NCBI RefSeq assembly: GCF_013407145.1
Contig: NZ_CP026993.1
Coordinates: forward strand, 1,076,590-1,140,589
Length of the DNA: 64,000 nucleotides
Source: Nitrosopumilus cobalaminigenes
GTDB lineage: Archaea > Thermoproteota > Nitrososphaeria > Nitrososphaerales > Nitrosopumilaceae
Direction: 5' to 3'
Below are positions 5,500 through 11,951 of this stretch, piece by piece; the first letter of the stretch is position 1, and the number at the start of each line of letters is the position of its first letter. The notes beneath the pieces were generated by a model that saw only the letters and a list, made by a program, of their open reading frames with translations, did not search any database and was not told the origin of the DNA. Made by a program: the position numbers and the translations under genes.

Positions 5500-5733
5500 G
5501 TGAATGTAATTCAGAGGAAATTAGAGGTTGAAACATCTAAAGAAATAATATTACAGACAATTTTAAAAAATAAAGAGAATTTGGATACGAATTTGATTGC
5601 TGACGCAATAAAAGATTATGTGAAAAATCATGAAAATTATGATTTTGAGAAAAAAGACTTTTGGAAGTCATTTCAGAAAAATGAAAAAATTGTAAAGTTT
5701 AGACCAGAGCCATCAATAGTTGGGTGTGACTAG
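5500..5733 (+). CDS. Hypothetical protein, 77 aa (GTG start)
   Basis: A small Lys/Glu-rich helical protein, no family recognised. The GTG at 5500 lies about 27 bases after a TATA-like TTATTAAAAT, consistent with a leaderless mRNA. Its last 35 bases overlap, in antisense, the end of the Cys-rich micro-gene read from the other strand (5699-5851), so the two transcripts converge and cross. Confidence 0.5.
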   Translation: MNVIQRKLEVETSKEIILQTILKNKENLDTNLIADAIKDYVKNHENYDFEKKDFWKSFQKNEKIVKFRPEPSIVGCD

Positions 5734-5851
5734 TATCTTTTCTAAAACAGGCATCCAATCTAGATTGTAAAACTTTGAGATAACAATCAGTCGAACAGCA
5801 TCCCTTGTGACCTACATGGTATGATTTTAAACACATTTCACAGATATTCAA
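5699..5851 (-). CDS. Cys-rich micro-protein, 50 aa (TTG start), last gene of mini-operon
   Basis: The TTG start overlaps the upstream stop as TTGA and is preceded by AGGAG with an 8-base spacer, which decides the start. The N-terminus reads MNICEMCLKSYHVGHKGCC, with a further Cys at position 23 and another at 35; CxxC plus CC/C and two His suggest a zinc site. It occupies the same last place as the Cys-rich gene of the TrmB operon (6304-6468), although overall sequence similarity between the two is low. Function unknown. Confidence 0.6.
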   Translation of the reverse strand: MNICEMCLKSYHVGHKGCCSTDCYLKVLQSRLDACFRKDTSHTQLLMALV

Positions 5852-5952
5852 GAGTACATCTCCTGTGTCTGTTGTTTGATTTTTGAAATTACAGTATTGG
5901 TCATTTTGAGTAATTCATCCATTTGTGGATCCTGGACATATTGTAGAGTCAA
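5848..5952 (-). CDS. Micro-protein, 34 aa (TTG start), LLKMTN family
   Basis: TTG start overlapping the preceding gene's stop (TTGA), with AAGGAG eight bases upstream. Same length as, and clearly homologous to, the 34-residue gene at 7618-7722: both start with MT.Q (the TTG is read as Met), keep (L/I)LKMTN.V in the middle and have KIK.QT.E near the end. The protein is predicted to be one amphipathic helix. No known family. Confidence 0.65.
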   Translation of the reverse strand: MTLQYVQDPQMDELLKMTNTVISKIKQQTQEMYS

Positions 5953-6086
5953 AGGTAAGACTCCTTTACAGATAATTTGACTTTCAAAAGTACTTCATTT
6001 GTCATTTGTAAGAGATTTGCCATTTCAGCATCTAGAAAATAGTCTGAATTGGAATCAAACATTGTGGTTTTTTGTGATGTGTTCAT
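5949..6086 (-). CDS. Micro-protein, 45 aa, LLKMTN family, first gene of mini-operon
   Basis: ATG start 22 bases after the conserved promoter block at 6108-6140. It aligns with the 44-residue first gene of the TrmB operon (7719-7853): MN..Q at the start, then DSNS...LDAEM against NSNS..ILDAGM, then NLLQMTNEVLLKVK against SLLKMTNDVMMKIK. The two genes thus arose by duplication together with their promoter. No signal peptide or known domain. Confidence 0.7.
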   Translation of the reverse strand: MNTSQKTTMFDSNSDYFLDAEMANLLQMTNEVLLKVKLSVKESYL

Positions 6087-6107
6087 CTTTTCTTCAATAT
6101 ACTATTA

Positions 6108-6140
6108 GTTACAATGAATATAACCAAGGATTTCGATTAG
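6108..6140 (-). promoter_or_regulatory. Promoter block, copy 1 (mini-operon)
   Basis: On the minus strand this 33-base block contains CTAATCGAAATCC, then the TATA-like GGTTATATTC. It matches the block at 7875-7907 at 31 of 33 positions, and both end exactly 22 bases from the ATG of their micro-operon. With the TATA centre about 34 bases before the ATG, the transcript would have only a few leader bases. Confidence 0.7.
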
Positions 6141-6152
6141 TCATGAACAAAG

Positions 6153-6171
6153 TATCGAAGGTGTCGAACCT
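6153..6171. promoter_or_regulatory. Candidate operator upstream of promoter copy 1
   Basis: On the minus strand, AGGTTCG is followed at a 9-base offset by CCTTCG. The same pair at the same offset (GGTTCG, GGTTCG) occurs upstream of promoter copy 2. The placement, just before the TATA/BRE region, suits a regulator such as the neighbouring TrmB protein. Binding is inferred. Confidence 0.45.
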
Positions 6172-6303: not shown

Positions 6304-6468
6304 TTAAGCAATTTTTTCAATGGATAAGATTAATTCTTCATCACCAAAACAATGCTTGTTTTCAACACAGTTAGAGCAAACCATCCATTTAGGAGTGTAT
6401 TGACCGCCAGGGGCAGGCCTATAAGTAATCATAAATTTTTTCTCATGTCTATCTTCGCATCGATTCAT
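6304..6468 (-). CDS. Cys-rich micro-protein, 54 aa, last gene of TrmB operon
   Basis: ATG start with AAGGAG seven bases upstream; it overlaps the preceding micro-gene by 20 bases in another frame. Cysteines occur at positions 4, 31, 34 and 40 (MNRCEDRHEK; VCSNCVENKHC), together with His8 and His39, which suggests a small zinc-bound fold. The middle is Pro/Gly-rich (YRPAPGGQYTPKW). It parallels the Cys-rich protein closing the sister operon. Function unknown. Confidence 0.65.
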   Translation of the reverse strand: MNRCEDRHEKKFMITYRPAPGGQYTPKWMVCSNCVENKHCFGDEELILSIEKIA

Positions 6469-6538
6469 CGTCAATCTCCTTTGATAGTTGTTCTACTTGG
6501 CCAGTGAGTAGTAAGTAGAATTTCCTCAATGTATTCAC
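6449..6538 (-). CDS. Micro-protein, 29 aa (GTG start), YLLLTGQVE duplicate 2
   Basis: GTG start overlapping the upstream stop (GTGA), with GAGGAG eight bases before it. The core KFYLLLTGQVEQLSKEI is nearly identical to the preceding 24-residue gene (QFYLLLTGQVEELSEEI), so this is a tandem duplication in which both copies kept their start, stop and Shine-Dalgarno. Predicted amphipathic helix. No known family. Confidence 0.65.
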   Translation of the reverse strand: MNTLRKFYLLLTGQVEQLSKEIDDESMRR

Positions 6539-6609
6539 CAAGATATCTCCTCAGATAATTCCTCTACCTGACCAGTGAGTAACAAATAGAATTGTTTTAA
6601 GAAGTTCAA
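6535..6609 (-). CDS. Micro-protein, 24 aa (TTG start), YLLLTGQVE duplicate 1
   Basis: TTG start overlapping the stop of the 57-residue gene as TTGA, with AGGAG eight bases upstream. It encodes MNFLKQFYLL and then LTGQVEELSEE before a short end. The adjacent homologous copy, with a conserved reading frame and signals, argues that this very short gene is translated. Confidence 0.6.
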   Translation of the reverse strand: MNFLKQFYLLLTGQVEELSEEISW

Positions 6610-6779
6610 TACGTATTCTCCTGTGTTGCTTGTTTGATTTTTTGAACCACATCATAAGTCATTTTGATTAAATGTTCAACTTCAAGATCATTTAGATCCT
6701 CACGACCTTCATCATACGAATGTTGAGCGATAAAAGAAACTTCATTTTGAAGACTTTGAAGAGCTAATACAGTACTCAA
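6606..6779 (-). CDS. Micro-protein, 57 aa (TTG start), LLKMTN family
   Basis: The TTG at 6779 overlaps the TrmB stop (TTGA), and AGGAGG lies nine bases before it inside the trmB coding end; this is preferred to the longer TTG frame from 6803. The N-terminal half is unique. The C-terminal half, LEVEHLIKMTYDVVQKIKQ and then QEN, matches the 34- and 44-residue proteins of the cluster. Probably a third family member, coupled to TrmB synthesis. Confidence 0.65.
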   Translation of the reverse strand: MSTVLALQSLQNEVSFIAQHSYDEGREDLNDLEVEHLIKMTYDVVQKIKQATQENTY

Positions 6780-7624
6780 TATAATGATCCTCCTTTTTCC
6801 CAAGATAGTTCAAATAATGAACTCATCATATCGACAAGAGTTTCAGAATCAGACCACCATGCAAAAACCTGTCTAGTAGGATGTGTTGCATTGCGCATAA
6901 AGATGAGAACCTCTTTTTTGTCATTTACAATGAAACACTTGTTTTCAGAATTTGATGGCATTGCTCTAATAGAATCAGAATTCATTTCAGATAGAAATTC
7001 AGGAGTTTTGTTTAGTGGAGATACCACTAATTTGAGGTTGGTTGGAGATTCATCTATCCAATCAAACACATCTGAATGATACATTCTGAGCAAATCAGAT
7101 ACGCTTCCATAGATTCTCAAATCTTCAGCGCTAGAACCAACCATCTCTCTGATCTTGTTTGTGATCGGACCATTTCCATGCAACAATTGCATTTTTTCTG
7201 ATTTTGATTCATCTGTCTCTACGGCAAAAAATGGAATTTCTTTCCACATCTCAGATAGAGATTCTTCCTTATTTGCCAAGACATCGATTCTATCTTGTTC
7301 CTGTTTTACCAGGGTTGCAACTGCTTCTCTCATATCCATGGCAGTGTATTTGGTAGGATGTGCTAATTCTGCTACAACCAAACCCATGTTTTGGAGAGAA
7401 TTGACCAGATGGTATGTTTCAGTTCTTGGCAATTGTAGTGCTTTTGCTATCTCAGAAGCAGTCTTCGATCCATACTTGCCGAGATAAATGAACACCTTTG
7501 CCTGACTTTTGGTTAGGCCAAAATTGATTAATTCATTCCTGATTTTCTCAAGAGTGAGTTTATGCTTATACATTGCAGTATCTGATTCATTATCAAACAG
7601 ACTGATTTGATCTGAATTCAACAT
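6776..7624 (-). CDS. TrmB-family transcriptional regulator
   Basis: A 282-residue regulator. Residues about 25-95 form the TrmB winged helix-turn-helix (NFGLTKSQAKVFIYLGKYG, TASEIAKALQLPRTETYHLV). A coiled linker (near 100-125) leads to the C-terminal sugar- or ligand-binding-type effector domain with a phospholipase D-like fold (LRIYGSVSDLLRMYH). Family members sense small molecules and bind palindromes near promoters. Its ATG overlaps the stop of the upstream micro-gene by seven bases, and its stop overlaps the next micro-gene, so it is made in step with them. The operon's own promoter carries GGTTCG repeats that could be its operator. Confidence 0.85.
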   Translation of the reverse strand: MLNSDQISLFDNESDTAMYKHKLTLEKIRNELINFGLTKSQAKVFIYLGKYGSKTASEIAKALQLPRTETYHLVNSLQNMGLVVAELAHPTKYTAMDMREAVATLVKQEQDRIDVLANKEESLSEMWKEIPFFAVETDESKSEKMQLLHGNGPITNKIREMVGSSAEDLRIYGSVSDLLRMYHSDVFDWIDESPTNLKLVVSPLNKTPEFLSEMNSDSIRAMPSNSENKCFIVNDKKEVLIFMRNATHPTRQVFAWWSDSETLVDMMSSLFELSWEKGGSLY

Positions 7625-7722
7625 GAAATCTCCATTGTTTGTTTTTTGATCTTGAAAAGGACATCATTTGTCATTTTTAGAATATGATTCATTGAGGAAT
7701 CTTCAGGAAATTGATAGGTCAA
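7618..7722 (-). CDS. Micro-protein, 34 aa (TTG start), LLKMTN family
   Basis: TTG start overlapping the previous stop as TTGA, with TGGAG eight bases upstream. It has the same length as the gene at 5848-5952 and shares the pattern MT.Q...(D/E)...M..(L/I)LKMTN.V...KIK.QT.E. Its stop overlaps the trmB start. Predicted single amphipathic helix; may bind TrmB or a sister micro-protein (inference). Confidence 0.65.
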   Translation of the reverse strand: MTYQFPEDSSMNHILKMTNDVLFKIKKQTMEISC

Positions 7723-7853
7723 AGGGAAATCTCCAGAGAATTTTGTTTAATCTTCATCATGACATCATTTGTCATTTTTAATAATGACTCCATTCCTGCA
7801 TCCAAAATCACAGAATTTGAGTTAAATGCGGGTGTTTGTTGTTCTATGTTCAT
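7719..7853 (-). CDS. Micro-protein, 44 aa, LLKMTN family, first gene of TrmB operon
   Basis: ATG start 22 bases after promoter copy 2. It begins MNIEQQTPAF and carries ESLLKMTNDVMMKIKQ in its second half. It is homologous over its full length to the first gene of the sister operon (5949-6086). The stop codon overlaps the next TTG start. No membrane segment or signal peptide. Confidence 0.7.
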   Translation of the reverse strand: MNIEQQTPAFNSNSVILDAGMESLLKMTNDVMMKIKQNSLEISL

Positions 7854-7874
7854 TGTTCTTCAGAGATTAGAGTG

Positions 7875-7907
7875 GTTACAATCAATATAACCAAGGATCT
7901 CGATTAG
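7875..7907 (-). promoter_or_regulatory. Promoter block, copy 2 (TrmB operon)
   Basis: A 33-base block with CTAATCGAGATCC and TATA-like GGTTATATTG on the minus strand, differing from copy 1 at only two positions. Conservation extends on both sides of the TATA box, more than promoter function alone would need. Confidence 0.7.
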
Positions 7908-7916
7908 GCACAAAAT

Positions 7917-7930
7917 ATGGTTCGAACCAT
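7917..7930. promoter_or_regulatory. 14-bp palindrome, candidate TrmB operator
   Basis: ATGGTTCGAACCAT reads identically on both strands. A further GGTTCG half-site follows at 9-base offset (minus strand). It sits between the TrmB operon promoter and the plus-strand gene at 7976, so it could control both. Confidence 0.5.
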
Positions 7931-7975
7931 GCGAACCTGTCATAATTTGCGTACCAGAAGTGGGATTACATACTA

Positions 7976-8767
7976 TTGCTTATAAAGGAAAATTGGGCAT
8001 TTAGTCTATTGGATAACAGGCAAATAGCCATCATATCGATTACATCTGTAGCAGTATTGCTAACGTTTTCTACAATTTATTCCAATTTTGATATTTTACA
8101 AGCATATGCAGGTGTCACGCTCAGCAGTGACAATGTAGCAAAATCCATTCAAGTTAGAGTCACACCTTCAGGAACATTAGAAGAAAGAGCATATGATTCA
8201 TTTTCAAGAGTTGGTTTTGTGGATGGAGAGAATAATTTCCTATTAGAATCAGTTCCTAGCAAAGACAAAAGATCATACTATGAATTACTAAAGCGATCAA
8301 TTGAAGACAAACGAGCAGAGAGTTCAGATAACAGAATTCATGTTTCAATAGATCTGTTTTCAGGAGATGGTGAAATCATACAATCATTAGAATACAGAGA
8401 TTGCAAGGTAACAGAATATTTTGTTCACGGAGTAGATTCCAAAGGAAAGATTTTCTTTACTGAAGAAGATGGTACCGTTGAGATCAGAGAGGTTAGTAAA
8501 TTTTCATGTGTCTCATTTACACTAAATCTAGAACCACGAAATGCAGGATTAGTAATTGATAAGATAATTGATAGATTTGTAGATGAAGATTCTGACGAAT
8601 TTAAATTCGAATATCATGGAGATGATCCTTATTTCAGTGTAAACCCATTAAACTCGACTGAAGGAGAATTATTCTATAATAGTATGACCAACACACTGCA
8701 GAAATTTGTAAATGGTGAATGGGTAGATATTTCAGGAAAGGGCGGACCACCATCACCTAGAAGATAG
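7976..8767 (+). CDS. Secreted or membrane-anchored hypothetical protein, 263 aa
   Basis: N-terminal hydrophobic segment (near residues 15-35 of this frame) followed by beta-rich extracellular sequence ending in Pro-Pro-Ser-Pro-Arg-Arg. No family recognised. Start uncertain: TTG at 7976 opens the frame, but TTATAAA at 7980-7986 lies inside it and would place a leaderless start at the in-frame TTG at 8009 (MDNRQIAIIS). The next gene starts 4 bases after the stop, so they form an operon. The 14-bp palindrome upstream suggests shared control with the divergent TrmB operon. Confidence 0.6.
   Translation: MLIKENWAFSLLDNRQIAIISITSVAVLLTFSTIYSNFDILQAYAGVTLSSDNVAKSIQVRVTPSGTLEERAYDSFSRVGFVDGENNFLLESVPSKDKRSYYELLKRSIEDKRAESSDNRIHVSIDLFSGDGEIIQSLEYRDCKVTEYFVHGVDSKGKIFFTEEDGTVEIREVSKFSCVSFTLNLEPRNAGLVIDKIIDRFVDEDSDEFKFEYHGDDPYFSVNPLNSTEGELFYNSMTNTLQKFVNGEWVDISGKGGPPSPRR
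7980..7986 (+). promoter_or_regulatory. TATA box of the secreted-protein operon
   Basis: TTATAAA, centred 26 bases before the in-frame TTG at 8009, the usual distance for a leaderless archaeal start. It argues for 8009 rather than 7976 as the true start. Confidence 0.45.
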
Positions 8768-8771
8768 AACA

Positions 8772-11700
8772 ATGAAATTACAAATCATTGTCATTCTGCT
8801 ATTAACAGTTGGAATTACTGCAGGTTTGGCCCAACTAGGAAGTGAGCAGATATTCATCACAGTCACCTCTGAAGGTAAAGCAAAGGTTTCACAATCATTA
8901 TTCCCAGAGACATTTGTATCAACAGTAGACGTAAAGGTCATTTCTGAAAACATTTCAAATTTGTTAGCAATTGATGAAGAGAATATACTTCTCGGAACAT
9001 CTCAAAATGAAGATTTACTAAAAATTGCGACTCTAGGTGCGTCGTCAGTGGATTTAAAATATAATGCAGATATCCTATCCTACGAATCAGGTGTTTTCAG
9101 GCTCAAATACAATAGCAATGTTGAATCCAGAGTTAACCTACCCCCACTCTCAAAACTTGTATCTCTAAATACAATCCCAATTGAAATTTCAGATGGTGAA
9201 TATACTCTCCCTCCAGGAGACATTTCCCTGAGTTTCTCAATCAGACCAGTCACATCAAAGGAGTTTTTTGTTCCAGTTGAGAATACAGAATACAAAATAG
9301 AGACAATAACTGCAGCAAAAATAGAAGAGTTTTCTGCAAATGCAGATGAAATTCAATTTATCATCAAAGACAAGGCAATTGTTTTGACAATCATTCCTAC
9401 AGAAATAATGACAAACCCAAATGACGCATTACTAAACGGTGAAAAAGTGGATTTTAGTCAATTTCATAAAAATTCAACACACTCATGGATTAGAATAGAT
9501 CCTCATGAGAAGGGTTTAGTAAAAATTCTCGATACATCTGAAAAAACAGAAGAGGGCGGAGGTTGTCTGATTGCAACTGCAACATATGGAACAGAGATGG
9601 CACCTCAAGTTCAATTGTTAAGAGAAATTAGAGATAATCAGTTGATGAATACTAATTCAGGAGTATCATTTATGACAGGATTCAATTCGTTCTACTATTC
9701 ATTCTCACCACATGTAGCAGATCTGCAAAGAGAAAACCAATTGTTTAAAGAAATTGTAAAAATTGGAATTACTCCATTGTTATCATCTCTTTTTGTAATG
9801 GAATATGCAGAAACGGATGAAGAAATTTTAGGATTAGGCATCAGTGTCATCCTAATGAACATTGGAATGTATTTTGTTTTCCCATTTGTAATATGTTATC
9901 AAGGTATGAGGATTCTTCGAACCAAAGGCGTGAAGAAATCGAACTGGTCGGTTATATCCAATTGTAACTATAATTCAGTATTGAAAATCGGTCTTCTCGG
10001 CCTAATTGCACTTTTCGTATTAACAGTTAGTTTACCTTCAGCTTTTGCCCAAACAGATTCTGAATCTGAATCACCACTCAGAATGGTTCTTGATATCACC
10101 TATGAAAATATTGTAGAATCAATAACTGATTCAGGATTAGACCAGGAAGAGATCACAGTCAGATTAATCCAGGTAGATGAGGAATATCAGGAAGCAGTTG
10201 ATCTAATTAATGGGGATGATGTAGTTGCTGCCAAACAAAATGTGGTTCAAACCATGGCATTTTTCGAACTGCAAGCAGAAGAAATTTCTGAATCTAGCCC
10301 CACACCAGGCCAATTAACACCTGGTTTTGGAGCAGGAATTGGTAGTGCTTCAGATTCCGGAATAGAGAATGGCCAAGGATTAGGAGTAGGAGGAGTACCA
10401 CCAGGAATTTTCAAGCAAATTTCAGCTGCTAATACATTTGCAGTTTCAGAAGCAATCACATCAATTGATGAAGAGGTAGGACAATATCGTGAATTAGCCA
10501 AATTGAATAATTTAGAGGGTATTGATTTTGGAGAATTTGATGAATCAGTCAATTTAGCAAAAACACTTTTGGCAAATGGAGTTGTTCCTGATGCACAAGT
10601 AAAATTAGAATTAGCAAATCAAATCAAAGATGATCTTTTACAAAAAATTCAAGATGCTGCAAATGAAAACAGTGCAGTATTAATTGAAGAATACGTAGAG
10701 GAACAAAAGAATCTAGGTCAAACTAAAAAAGACATTAGAGAATTAGAAGAAATTTTAGAAGATATTACAACTGACAATAATGAAGAAACAGGTGATGGTG
10801 AGACACCAGAAGATGGCGTTAATGAAGCACCAGGAAACAGTGCAAATGCACCAGGACAAAACAAAGCAGACAGTGGAGATGAAGCACCAGGAAACAGTGC
10901 AAATGCACCAGGACAAAACAAAGAAAATGACAATACTGAAGATAACAAATTTGAATCACCTGAGGATATTCCAGGATTTGACAGTGCATCAGATATTGGC
11001 AAAGCAAATGGTCAGGGTAATGGATTAGGATTAGGAAGTATTCCACCAGGATTAGCTAAATTATTTGGAACAGACGAAGGGGAAATCTTAGAAGATTTAC
11101 CACCAGGATTAGCTAACATTCCACCAGGTCAAGCAAAGAAATTTGAAGATTATTCAGCCAGCTTTGAGCAAAGTATGGATGACTTCTATGAAAATTCCTA
11201 TGAAGCACAAATTGACGATGTATTTGAAATGAACTTTGATGGAACTAACAAAGGTAATGGAGATGGTAAAGGTAAGATGGGCGCATATCCAGGAAAGAGT
11301 GGAGAAGCACCAGGAAAGATCAAAGCAGCTACCAAGGAAGGAGGCAATCCTAACTGTGGAACCAAAGGAATTACCGATGGCAACTCTACTGCATCACTTA
11401 TTGTAGGTCAAGAGCATTTCATTGATGATTTCACTGCAATAGGAAACAATTGTAAAGACATCTCAAGTCAGATTAAATTTAACTTGATTGCACCAAACGG
11501 TACAGTCTACTTTGGATCAAACGCAAATGTATTCCAAGGAACACAACCGGATAGTTTCACACCAGATGTGAATGGGTCATGGGAAATTCAGACCAAGGTT
11601 CAGTCATTTAGACTGGATAGAGTCATGACAGCTACTGGTGGAGATGAAATTCCAACAGTTACAGGAGGAGGCATCCCAGACGATAGTACAGGTGAAGGAG

Positions 11701-11951
11701 TTGATTATGTAATTAATGTTGCAGCATACTTTGATGATGTGGAAGATCTTGATTCAGAAATGACATACACTGGAACAGACTCAAAGGTATCAGGTCAAGG
11801 TAATTTGGTAAATGCCATAACTAGTGATGGCAATACTACAATAACAGTAGATGTCAATGCTGGAAAAACAGGAGTCTACGATATCACTATCAGAGCTACT
11901 GACACAGCAGGCGGATTTGTAGAAGATACGTTTAGACTTACAGTATCATAG
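8772..11951 (+). CDS. Large surface protein with CFI-box, internal signal-like segment and cadherin-like C-terminus
   Basis: 1059 residues. Signal peptide at 1-20; beta-rich domain to about 255; a CFI-box with GGGCLIATATYG (Cys265), then hydrophobic helices near 320-385. At about 398-425 is a second, complete signal-peptide-like stretch ending SLPSAFAQ, followed by a helical acidic region, Gly/Pro-rich repeats (PPGLAK, PPGQAK, APGNSANAPGQNK twice) and a C-terminal domain with FDDVEDLDSEMTYTG and ITIRATDTAGGF typical of cadherin-like folds. The layout suggests fusion of a CFI-box membrane protein with an exported adhesin. Its role at the cell surface is inferred. Check the reading frame around 9900-10000 for a lost stop. 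Confidence 0.75.
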   Translation: MKLQIIVILLLTVGITAGLAQLGSEQIFITVTSEGKAKVSQSLFPETFVSTVDVKVISENISNLLAIDEENILLGTSQNEDLLKIATLGASSVDLKYNADILSYESGVFRLKYNSNVESRVNLPPLSKLVSLNTIPIEISDGEYTLPPGDISLSFSIRPVTSKEFFVPVENTEYKIETITAAKIEEFSANADEIQFIIKDKAIVLTIIPTEIMTNPNDALLNGEKVDFSQFHKNSTHSWIRIDPHEKGLVKILDTSEKTEEGGGCLIATATYGTEMAPQVQLLREIRDNQLMNTNSGVSFMTGFNSFYYSFSPHVADLQRENQLFKEIVKIGITPLLSSLFVMEYAETDEEILGLGISVILMNIGMYFVFPFVICYQGMRILRTKGVKKSNWSVISNCNYNSVLKIGLLGLIALFVLTVSLPSAFAQTDSESESPLRMVLDITYENIVESITDSGLDQEEITVRLIQVDEEYQEAVDLINGDDVVAAKQNVVQTMAFFELQAEEISESSPTPGQLTPGFGAGIGSASDSGIENGQGLGVGGVPPGIFKQISAANTFAVSEAITSIDEEVGQYRELAKLNNLEGIDFGEFDESVNLAKTLLANGVVPDAQVKLELANQIKDDLLQKIQDAANENSAVLIEEYVEEQKNLGQTKKDIRELEEILEDITTDNNEETGDGETPEDGVNEAPGNSANAPGQNKADSGDEAPGNSANAPGQNKENDNTEDNKFESPEDIPGFDSASDIGKANGQGNGLGLGSIPPGLAKLFGTDEGEILEDLPPGLANIPPGQAKKFEDYSASFEQSMDDFYENSYEAQIDDVFEMNFDGTNKGNGDGKGKMGAYPGKSGEAPGKIKAATKEGGNPNCGTKGITDGNSTASLIVGQEHFIDDFTAIGNNCKDISSQIKFNLIAPNGTVYFGSNANVFQGTQPDSFTPDVNGSWEIQTKVQSFRLDRVMTATGGDEIPTVTGGGIPDDSTGEGVDYVINVAAYFDDVEDLDSEMTYTGTDSKVSGQGNLVNAITSDGNTTITVDVNAGKTGVYDITIRATDTAGGFVEDTFRLTVS
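10824..10923 (+). repeat. Two exact 43-bp direct repeats, 57 bp apart
   Basis: Bases 10824-10866 recur exactly at 10881-10923, encoding EAPGNSANAPGQNK twice within the large surface protein. A recent in-frame duplication of a Pro/Gly/Asn linker. Confidence 0.9.

Follow-up and report, generated by a model that had tools for sequence, protein, structure and literature searches.

Two operons of overlapping micro-genes

The window analysed here (64,000 nt) spans positions 1,076,590–1,140,589 of the Nitrosopumilus cobalaminigenes genome, which is 1.56 Mb long and assembled in one contig. On its minus strand lies a compact operon of three genes at 5699–6086 (45, 34 and 50 codons), which we term the sister operon. 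Its first gene, S1′ (5949–6086, 45 aa), starts at ATG and encodes 15 residues resembling a TrmB N terminus, followed by a KMTNEV-type helix. S2′ (5848–5952) encodes a 34-aa helix micropeptide, and Cys (5699–5851) a 50-aa C4 zinc-finger-like microprotein. Both of these start at a TTG lying within a 4-nt overlap (TTGA) with the gene before, whose tail contains a GGAG ribosome site; relatives use ATG for S2′. A 77-aa open reading frame on the plus strand (5500–5733), convergent to the sister operon, is kept in three relatives (...ILKNKENLDTNLIA...), with a 3′ end that differs in this genome, where it extends 35 nt into Cys.

Upstream on the same strand, the TrmB operon (7853–6304) is richer in genes than the first-pass annotation described, with seven overlapping members in the order S1-S2-TrmB-S3-S4-S5-S6. 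S1 (7719–7853, 44 aa) and S2 (7618–7722, 34 aa, starting at TTG within a TTGA overlap) are matched over their full length by S1′ and S2′. The regulator (6776–7621) has 281 aa from TTG at 7621, or 282 from ATG at 7624; its winged-helix domain is clear (PF01978, 2.5e-15, 56.5 bits against a cut-off of 25.6) and it matches TrmBL2 structures at 5e-6, and the C-terminal effector domain (Regulator_TrmB, PF11495) is below cut-off (8.7e-4, 19.0 bits against 22.2). TTGA coupling also joins TrmB to S3 (6606–6779), a third helix gene whose 57-aa product has the same helix core and an N-terminal extension. S4 (6535–6609) encodes 24 aa (MNFLKQFYLLLTGQVEELSEEISW), S5 (6449–6538) its 29-aa paralogue, and S6 (6304–6468) a 54-aa zinc-type microprotein (CxxxH..WLVCxxC) whose gene shares 20 nt with S5. 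Five copies of a 62-nt repeat are spread over the two operons, one of them inside S3. Divergent to the TrmB operon (8009–11951, plus strand) are genes for two proteins, one of 252 aa that begins with a signal-peptide-like segment and one of 1,059 aa and surface type; neither has a Pfam match, and the pair is syntenic in genomes G002, G011, G035 and G063.

Both full operons occur in three related genomes (G002, G011 and G035), giving four Nitrosopumilus genomes in which the three sister genes are intact. We compared orthologues by pN/pS on phylogenetically separate pairs, with Fisher tests and shifted frames as control. The sister genes are under purifying selection (S1′ 0.38, P = 2.7e-4; S2′ 0.25, P = 2.5e-8; Cys 0.17, P = 5.6e-15), and in shifted frames the values are 0.76–1.69, none significant. 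Across all ten genes of both operons pN/pS is 0.06–0.38 (P from 2.7e-4 to 2.5e-87; 0.06 for S4 and 0.16 for S5), with no signal in the other two frames. Between paralogues, where nearly saturated synonymous sites make the comparison weaker than that of orthologues, S2/S2′ shows constraint in each of the four genomes (0.42–0.53, P 0.008–0.0003) and S1/S1′ (0.48–0.74) shows significant constraint in this genome only (P = 0.002). A search for frameshifts in the orthologues found none in G002, G011 and G035, where all operon genes are intact save S4 in G011; there an in-frame deletion joins the tail of S3 to that of S4, S4 is lost and the coupling of S5 is preserved. An Rfam search for structured RNA returned no match. 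The helix peptides share a conserved Glu at the C terminus; we considered this residue as a protein feature and rejected it, since its codon coincides with the GGAG site of the next gene and is therefore not evidence for protein-level selection. The first-pass annotation had proposed a sister mini-operon without TrmB, sharing the promoter of the TrmB operon and selected at the protein level, and the data bear this out; we regard the coding status of the micro-genes and their common promoters as well supported.

With the exception of S5/S6 (−20 nt), every junction within the operons measures −4 or −1 nt (G002, G011 and G035), and most internal starts have GGAG some 9–12 nt upstream, an architecture kept in all four genomes. 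Two studies report that archaeal gene overlaps give termination–reinitiation coupling and are enriched for genes of heteromeric complexes (PMC6728339, PMC10666635). For Haloferax, complex subunits are encoded by 45% of gene pairs spaced at −8 to +10 nt, compared with 5.6% of distant pairs (PMC10666635). The coupled gene pairs of archaea such as Haloferax share 4-nt and 1-nt overlaps with the operons here; unlike those pairs, the present operons form runs of up to six junctions, with genes mostly of 24–57 codons that start mostly at TTG or GTG in this genome.

A shared promoter with candidate TrmB operators

The regions upstream of S1 and S1′ share 68% identity over 88 nt and contain a near-identical core of ~33 nt, with an almost unchanged block around the TATA box (CTAATCGA(A/G)ATCCTTGGTTATATT(C/G)ATTGTAAC). 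In the TrmB operon, a perfect GGTTA-N9-TAACC dyad lies over the TATA box of the core promoter (7874–7902, minus strand) and a perfect GGTTCG-N7-CGAACC dyad lies distal to it (7919–7937, minus strand), so that both elements are perfect 19-bp GGTT-N11-AACC dyads. The sister promoter has one weakened half-site in each: its core (6107–6135, minus strand; CGAAATCCTTGGTTATATTCATTGTAACT) places the TATA box TTATAT inside an imperfect GGTTA-N9-TAACT dyad, and its distal element (6152–6170, minus strand; GGTTCGACACCTTCGATAC) is a degenerate GGTTCG-N7-CGAACC dyad. The TrmB operon and the divergent 252-aa/1,059-aa pair have this operon's distal dyad between their promoters, and the pair could therefore also be under TrmB control.

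These motifs are close to exclusive to the two operons. The 28-nt core, allowing two mismatches, occurs only at their promoters in seven genomes of two genera (reversed-pattern control, 0), and is found twice wherever both operons are present, G063 of the second genus among these genomes. Without mismatch, GGTTCG-N5-TTCGA is restricted to the two promoters in this genome, G002 and G011; G035 and G162 have one exact site each, at the TrmB operon, the sister site of G035 carrying one mismatch. The GGTTA-N9-TAACC dyad over the TATA box is the sole such site in this genome, and four of its six sites in eight genomes are the operons' promoters.

In Pyrococcus and Halobacterium, TrmB proteins recognise palindromes that coincide with or adjoin the BRE/TATA, act there as repressors and autoregulate (PMC4158304). 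The nearly unique inverted repeat over the TATA box of TrmB's own promoter is a candidate operator, and the present regulator resembles Pyrococcus TrmB, TrmBL1 and TrmBL2 and Halobacterium TrmB in its winged-helix domain, its palindromic candidate operators at the BRE/TATA and its likely autoregulation. It differs from them in the candidate operator itself (GGTT-N11-AACC here; TACT-N3-AGTA, TATCAC-N5-GTGATA or TACT-N7-8-GAGTA in the known family), in an effector domain below the Pfam cut-off and in a regulon of micro-genes rather than sugar genes. Control of sugar genes is a trait of some TrmB members, but here the exact motifs lie at the two micro-gene operons only.

Micro-gene families in Nitrosopumilaceae

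The helix core (LLKMTNDVxxKIK) was found in 28 of 200 sampled Nitrosopumilaceae genomes, from 6 of 22 genera (E ≤ 0.05; chance may account for the weakest matches), and searches outside the family indicate that it is essentially confined there. A helix-like match in a 132-aa protein from another family of the same order (G248) is probably due to chance. Helix micro-genes are coupled to, or lie directly 3′ of, diverged TrmB paralogues (three loci) and follow TrmB genes of other genera too (L116, L117 and L120). Others are stand-alone genes of 30 aa in conserved neighbourhoods. One such gene, at another locus (L063, 2460–2558, minus strand; MTRNFAGDxxINNLLKMTNDVMDKLKKEIQ, with homologues at eight further loci) is conserved across Nitrosopumilus, has its own upstream region and sits between BtuF-like and B12-binding-like genes. 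Another (L129) lies away from TrmB between other metabolic genes.

Helix and zinc-type genes also meet elsewhere. At another locus a helix gene directly precedes an S6-type zinc microprotein, and at L115, L127 and L133 an S6-type protein and a C-terminal helix are fused in one product; these natural fusions argue for joint action of the helices and zinc microproteins that are encoded separately. The same three loci form a conserved cluster of aldo/keto reductase, DUF6659, an S3-type micropeptide and the S6-type/helix fusion. A further protein (L174) carries two helices in tandem. A model of the S6–helix fusion has a pLDDT of 68, with low confidence in the helix part, and a comparison with the PDB found no significant match. 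The hydrophobic moment of the S1′ helix is not significantly above that of shuffled sequences, and S1′ and S2′ are polar proteins with little net charge (−2 and −1). Searches of Pfam, NCBIfam, PADLOC, PHROGs and the PDB for known homologues of the helix family gave weak unrelated matches only (Lactococcin, 0.014; IF1, 0.023).

The first-pass annotation saw the sister as duplicated together with its promoter. The common promoter stands, but a single duplication is too simple, because micro-gene types have been redistributed between or within operons in N. salaria BD31, CSMAG_1990 and PL23a, and because this core promoter already heads two operons in G063 of the second genus. The first 15 residues of S1 and S1′ resemble those of TrmB, most closely between the G063 TrmB and the G035 S1′ (MNTTQxxxxFDxxSE; 0 of 400 shuffles). 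One simple possibility is that a copy of the promoter and first TrmB codons became joined to a helix gene, giving rise to S1.

The third sister gene is Cys-rich, as had been noted, but it is not the counterpart of the Cys gene in the TrmB operon: we rejected homology of Cys (CxxC..CSxxC..SHT) and S6 (CxxxH..WLVCxxC), as the profile of either fails to retrieve the other. Cys has four invariant cysteines (CxxC-x11-CSxxC) and an invariant C-terminal SHT. Its AlphaFold2 model (pLDDT 84) is confident in the CxxC/CSxxC part and a helix; the fold search yielded no significant match, the best Foldseek hit being zf-HIT (probability 0.21). No MYND/FCS-type zinc-finger profile matches Cys above cut-off, and a paralogue shows a weak sub-threshold match (zf-C6H2, 0.0063). 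Haloarchaeal one-domain zinc-finger micro-proteins (C(P)XCG; brz and the Haloferax set), of which brz regulates its neighbour gene, resemble Cys in having ~50 aa, four conserved cysteines and likely one zinc (PMC6562870). Cys lacks their pair of C(P)XCG motifs (it has CEMC and CSTDC, and CPxCG is absent), and is set apart by its CxxC-x11-CSxxC spacing, long helix and SHT tail and by its encoding in an operon coupled with helix peptides. Paralogues of Cys (C4 plus SHT) occur in Nitrosopumilaceae at four loci (L114, L128, L131 and L132), convergent to an ATP-NAD kinase fused with a MarR/TrmB-like winged helix; these are homologous to Cys, but are single genes outside coupled operons.

A proposed two-promoter regulon

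Our best explanation, to which we give an even chance, is a two-promoter, TrmB-autoregulated regulon of coupled microproteins that form complexes among themselves and perhaps also with TrmB; its protein-level mechanism is inferred. Promoter 1 would drive S1-S2-TrmB-S3-S4-S5-S6 and promoter 2 S1′-S2′-Cys. A TrmB dimer would bind both GGTT-N11-AACC dyads of a promoter, at the TATA box and upstream of it, repressing both operons together, presumably more loosely at the sister with its degenerate dyads. Coupling would fix the ratios of putatively amphipathic helix peptides, and these would pack as helix pairs or bundles, both among themselves and against the zinc microproteins. The helix peptides would probably dock on TrmB and alter its DNA binding, with S1 and S1′ contributing a duplicate of the regulator's N-terminal arm. 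On this view the sister operon would act as a satellite that adds further helix subunits and an alternative zinc subunit, with no added regulator. Comparison between genomes supports the TrmB–helix linkage, and likewise joint decay in G179, where TrmB is cut to ~107 matched residues, S6 and Cys are each split by a stop codon and the promoter is kept. Counting against this explanation, G031 and G032 have TrmB at the same site without micropeptides, so TrmB itself needs none. The helix genes that stand alone, the low confidence of the fusion model in its helix part and the unremarkable hydrophobic moment of the S1′ helix weigh on the same side.

The main rival holds that the micropeptides are targets of TrmB rather than its partners, forming a separate small complex (for example, at the membrane, RNA polymerase or ribosome) whose dose TrmB sets. 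We judge it a serious contender at somewhat below even probability: helix genes stand alone away from TrmB, as do helix and S6 pairs such as the aldo/keto reductase–DUF6659 cluster with its S3-type and S6-type genes, and the stand-alone genes together with the micropeptide-free TrmB of G031 and G032 leave room for it. Set against it are the TrmB-like N terminus of S1 and the recurrence of the helix gene beside several diverged TrmB paralogues, whose promoters differ. That the short frames act mainly in cis, as leader or coupling frames setting downstream translation with products of little weight, is improbable; most genes do bear the ribosome site of the next, and TrmB lies downstream of two, yet purifying selection is strong and frame-specific, conserved stand-alone copies have no coupled downstream gene and each operon ends in a microprotein gene. 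A toxin–antitoxin, bacteriocin-like or defence module seems about as improbable, the small genes, a Lactococcin-like Pfam match of S2′ (E 0.014, below cut-off) and the resemblance of the TrmB winged helix to Csa3/CasR regulators being offset by the polar, near-neutral character of S1′ and S2′ and by the lack of any match for S1′, S2′ and Cys in PADLOC, PHROGs and NCBIfam.

Extending the preferred two-promoter regulon, we suggest tentatively, as a possibility we rather doubt, that KMTNDV helices, FYLLLTGQVE helices and the two zinc microproteins make up a set of split micro-subunits, modular and shuffled, that assemble combinatorially on Nitrosopumilaceae TrmB regulators, whose effector part would be separate peptides of 24–57 aa, with the satellite operon altering the mix. 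We found no relevant papers on Nitrosopumilus TrmB or small open reading frames in the open-access literature. Beyond the first-pass annotation, what stands out most is the two-promoter regulon, together with the modular micro-gene families, which have no family match in the libraries searched. Genes of 24–57 codons with non-ATG starts and no library match can thus be recognized as selected, co-regulated protein families, and a defined two-promoter regulon is offered for an archaeal TrmB-family regulator. If the micropeptides do bind TrmB, building a transcription regulator from co-translated pieces in this manner would be unusual. The regulon is ecologically relevant, since Nitrosopumilus and its relatives oxidise ammonia in the sea.
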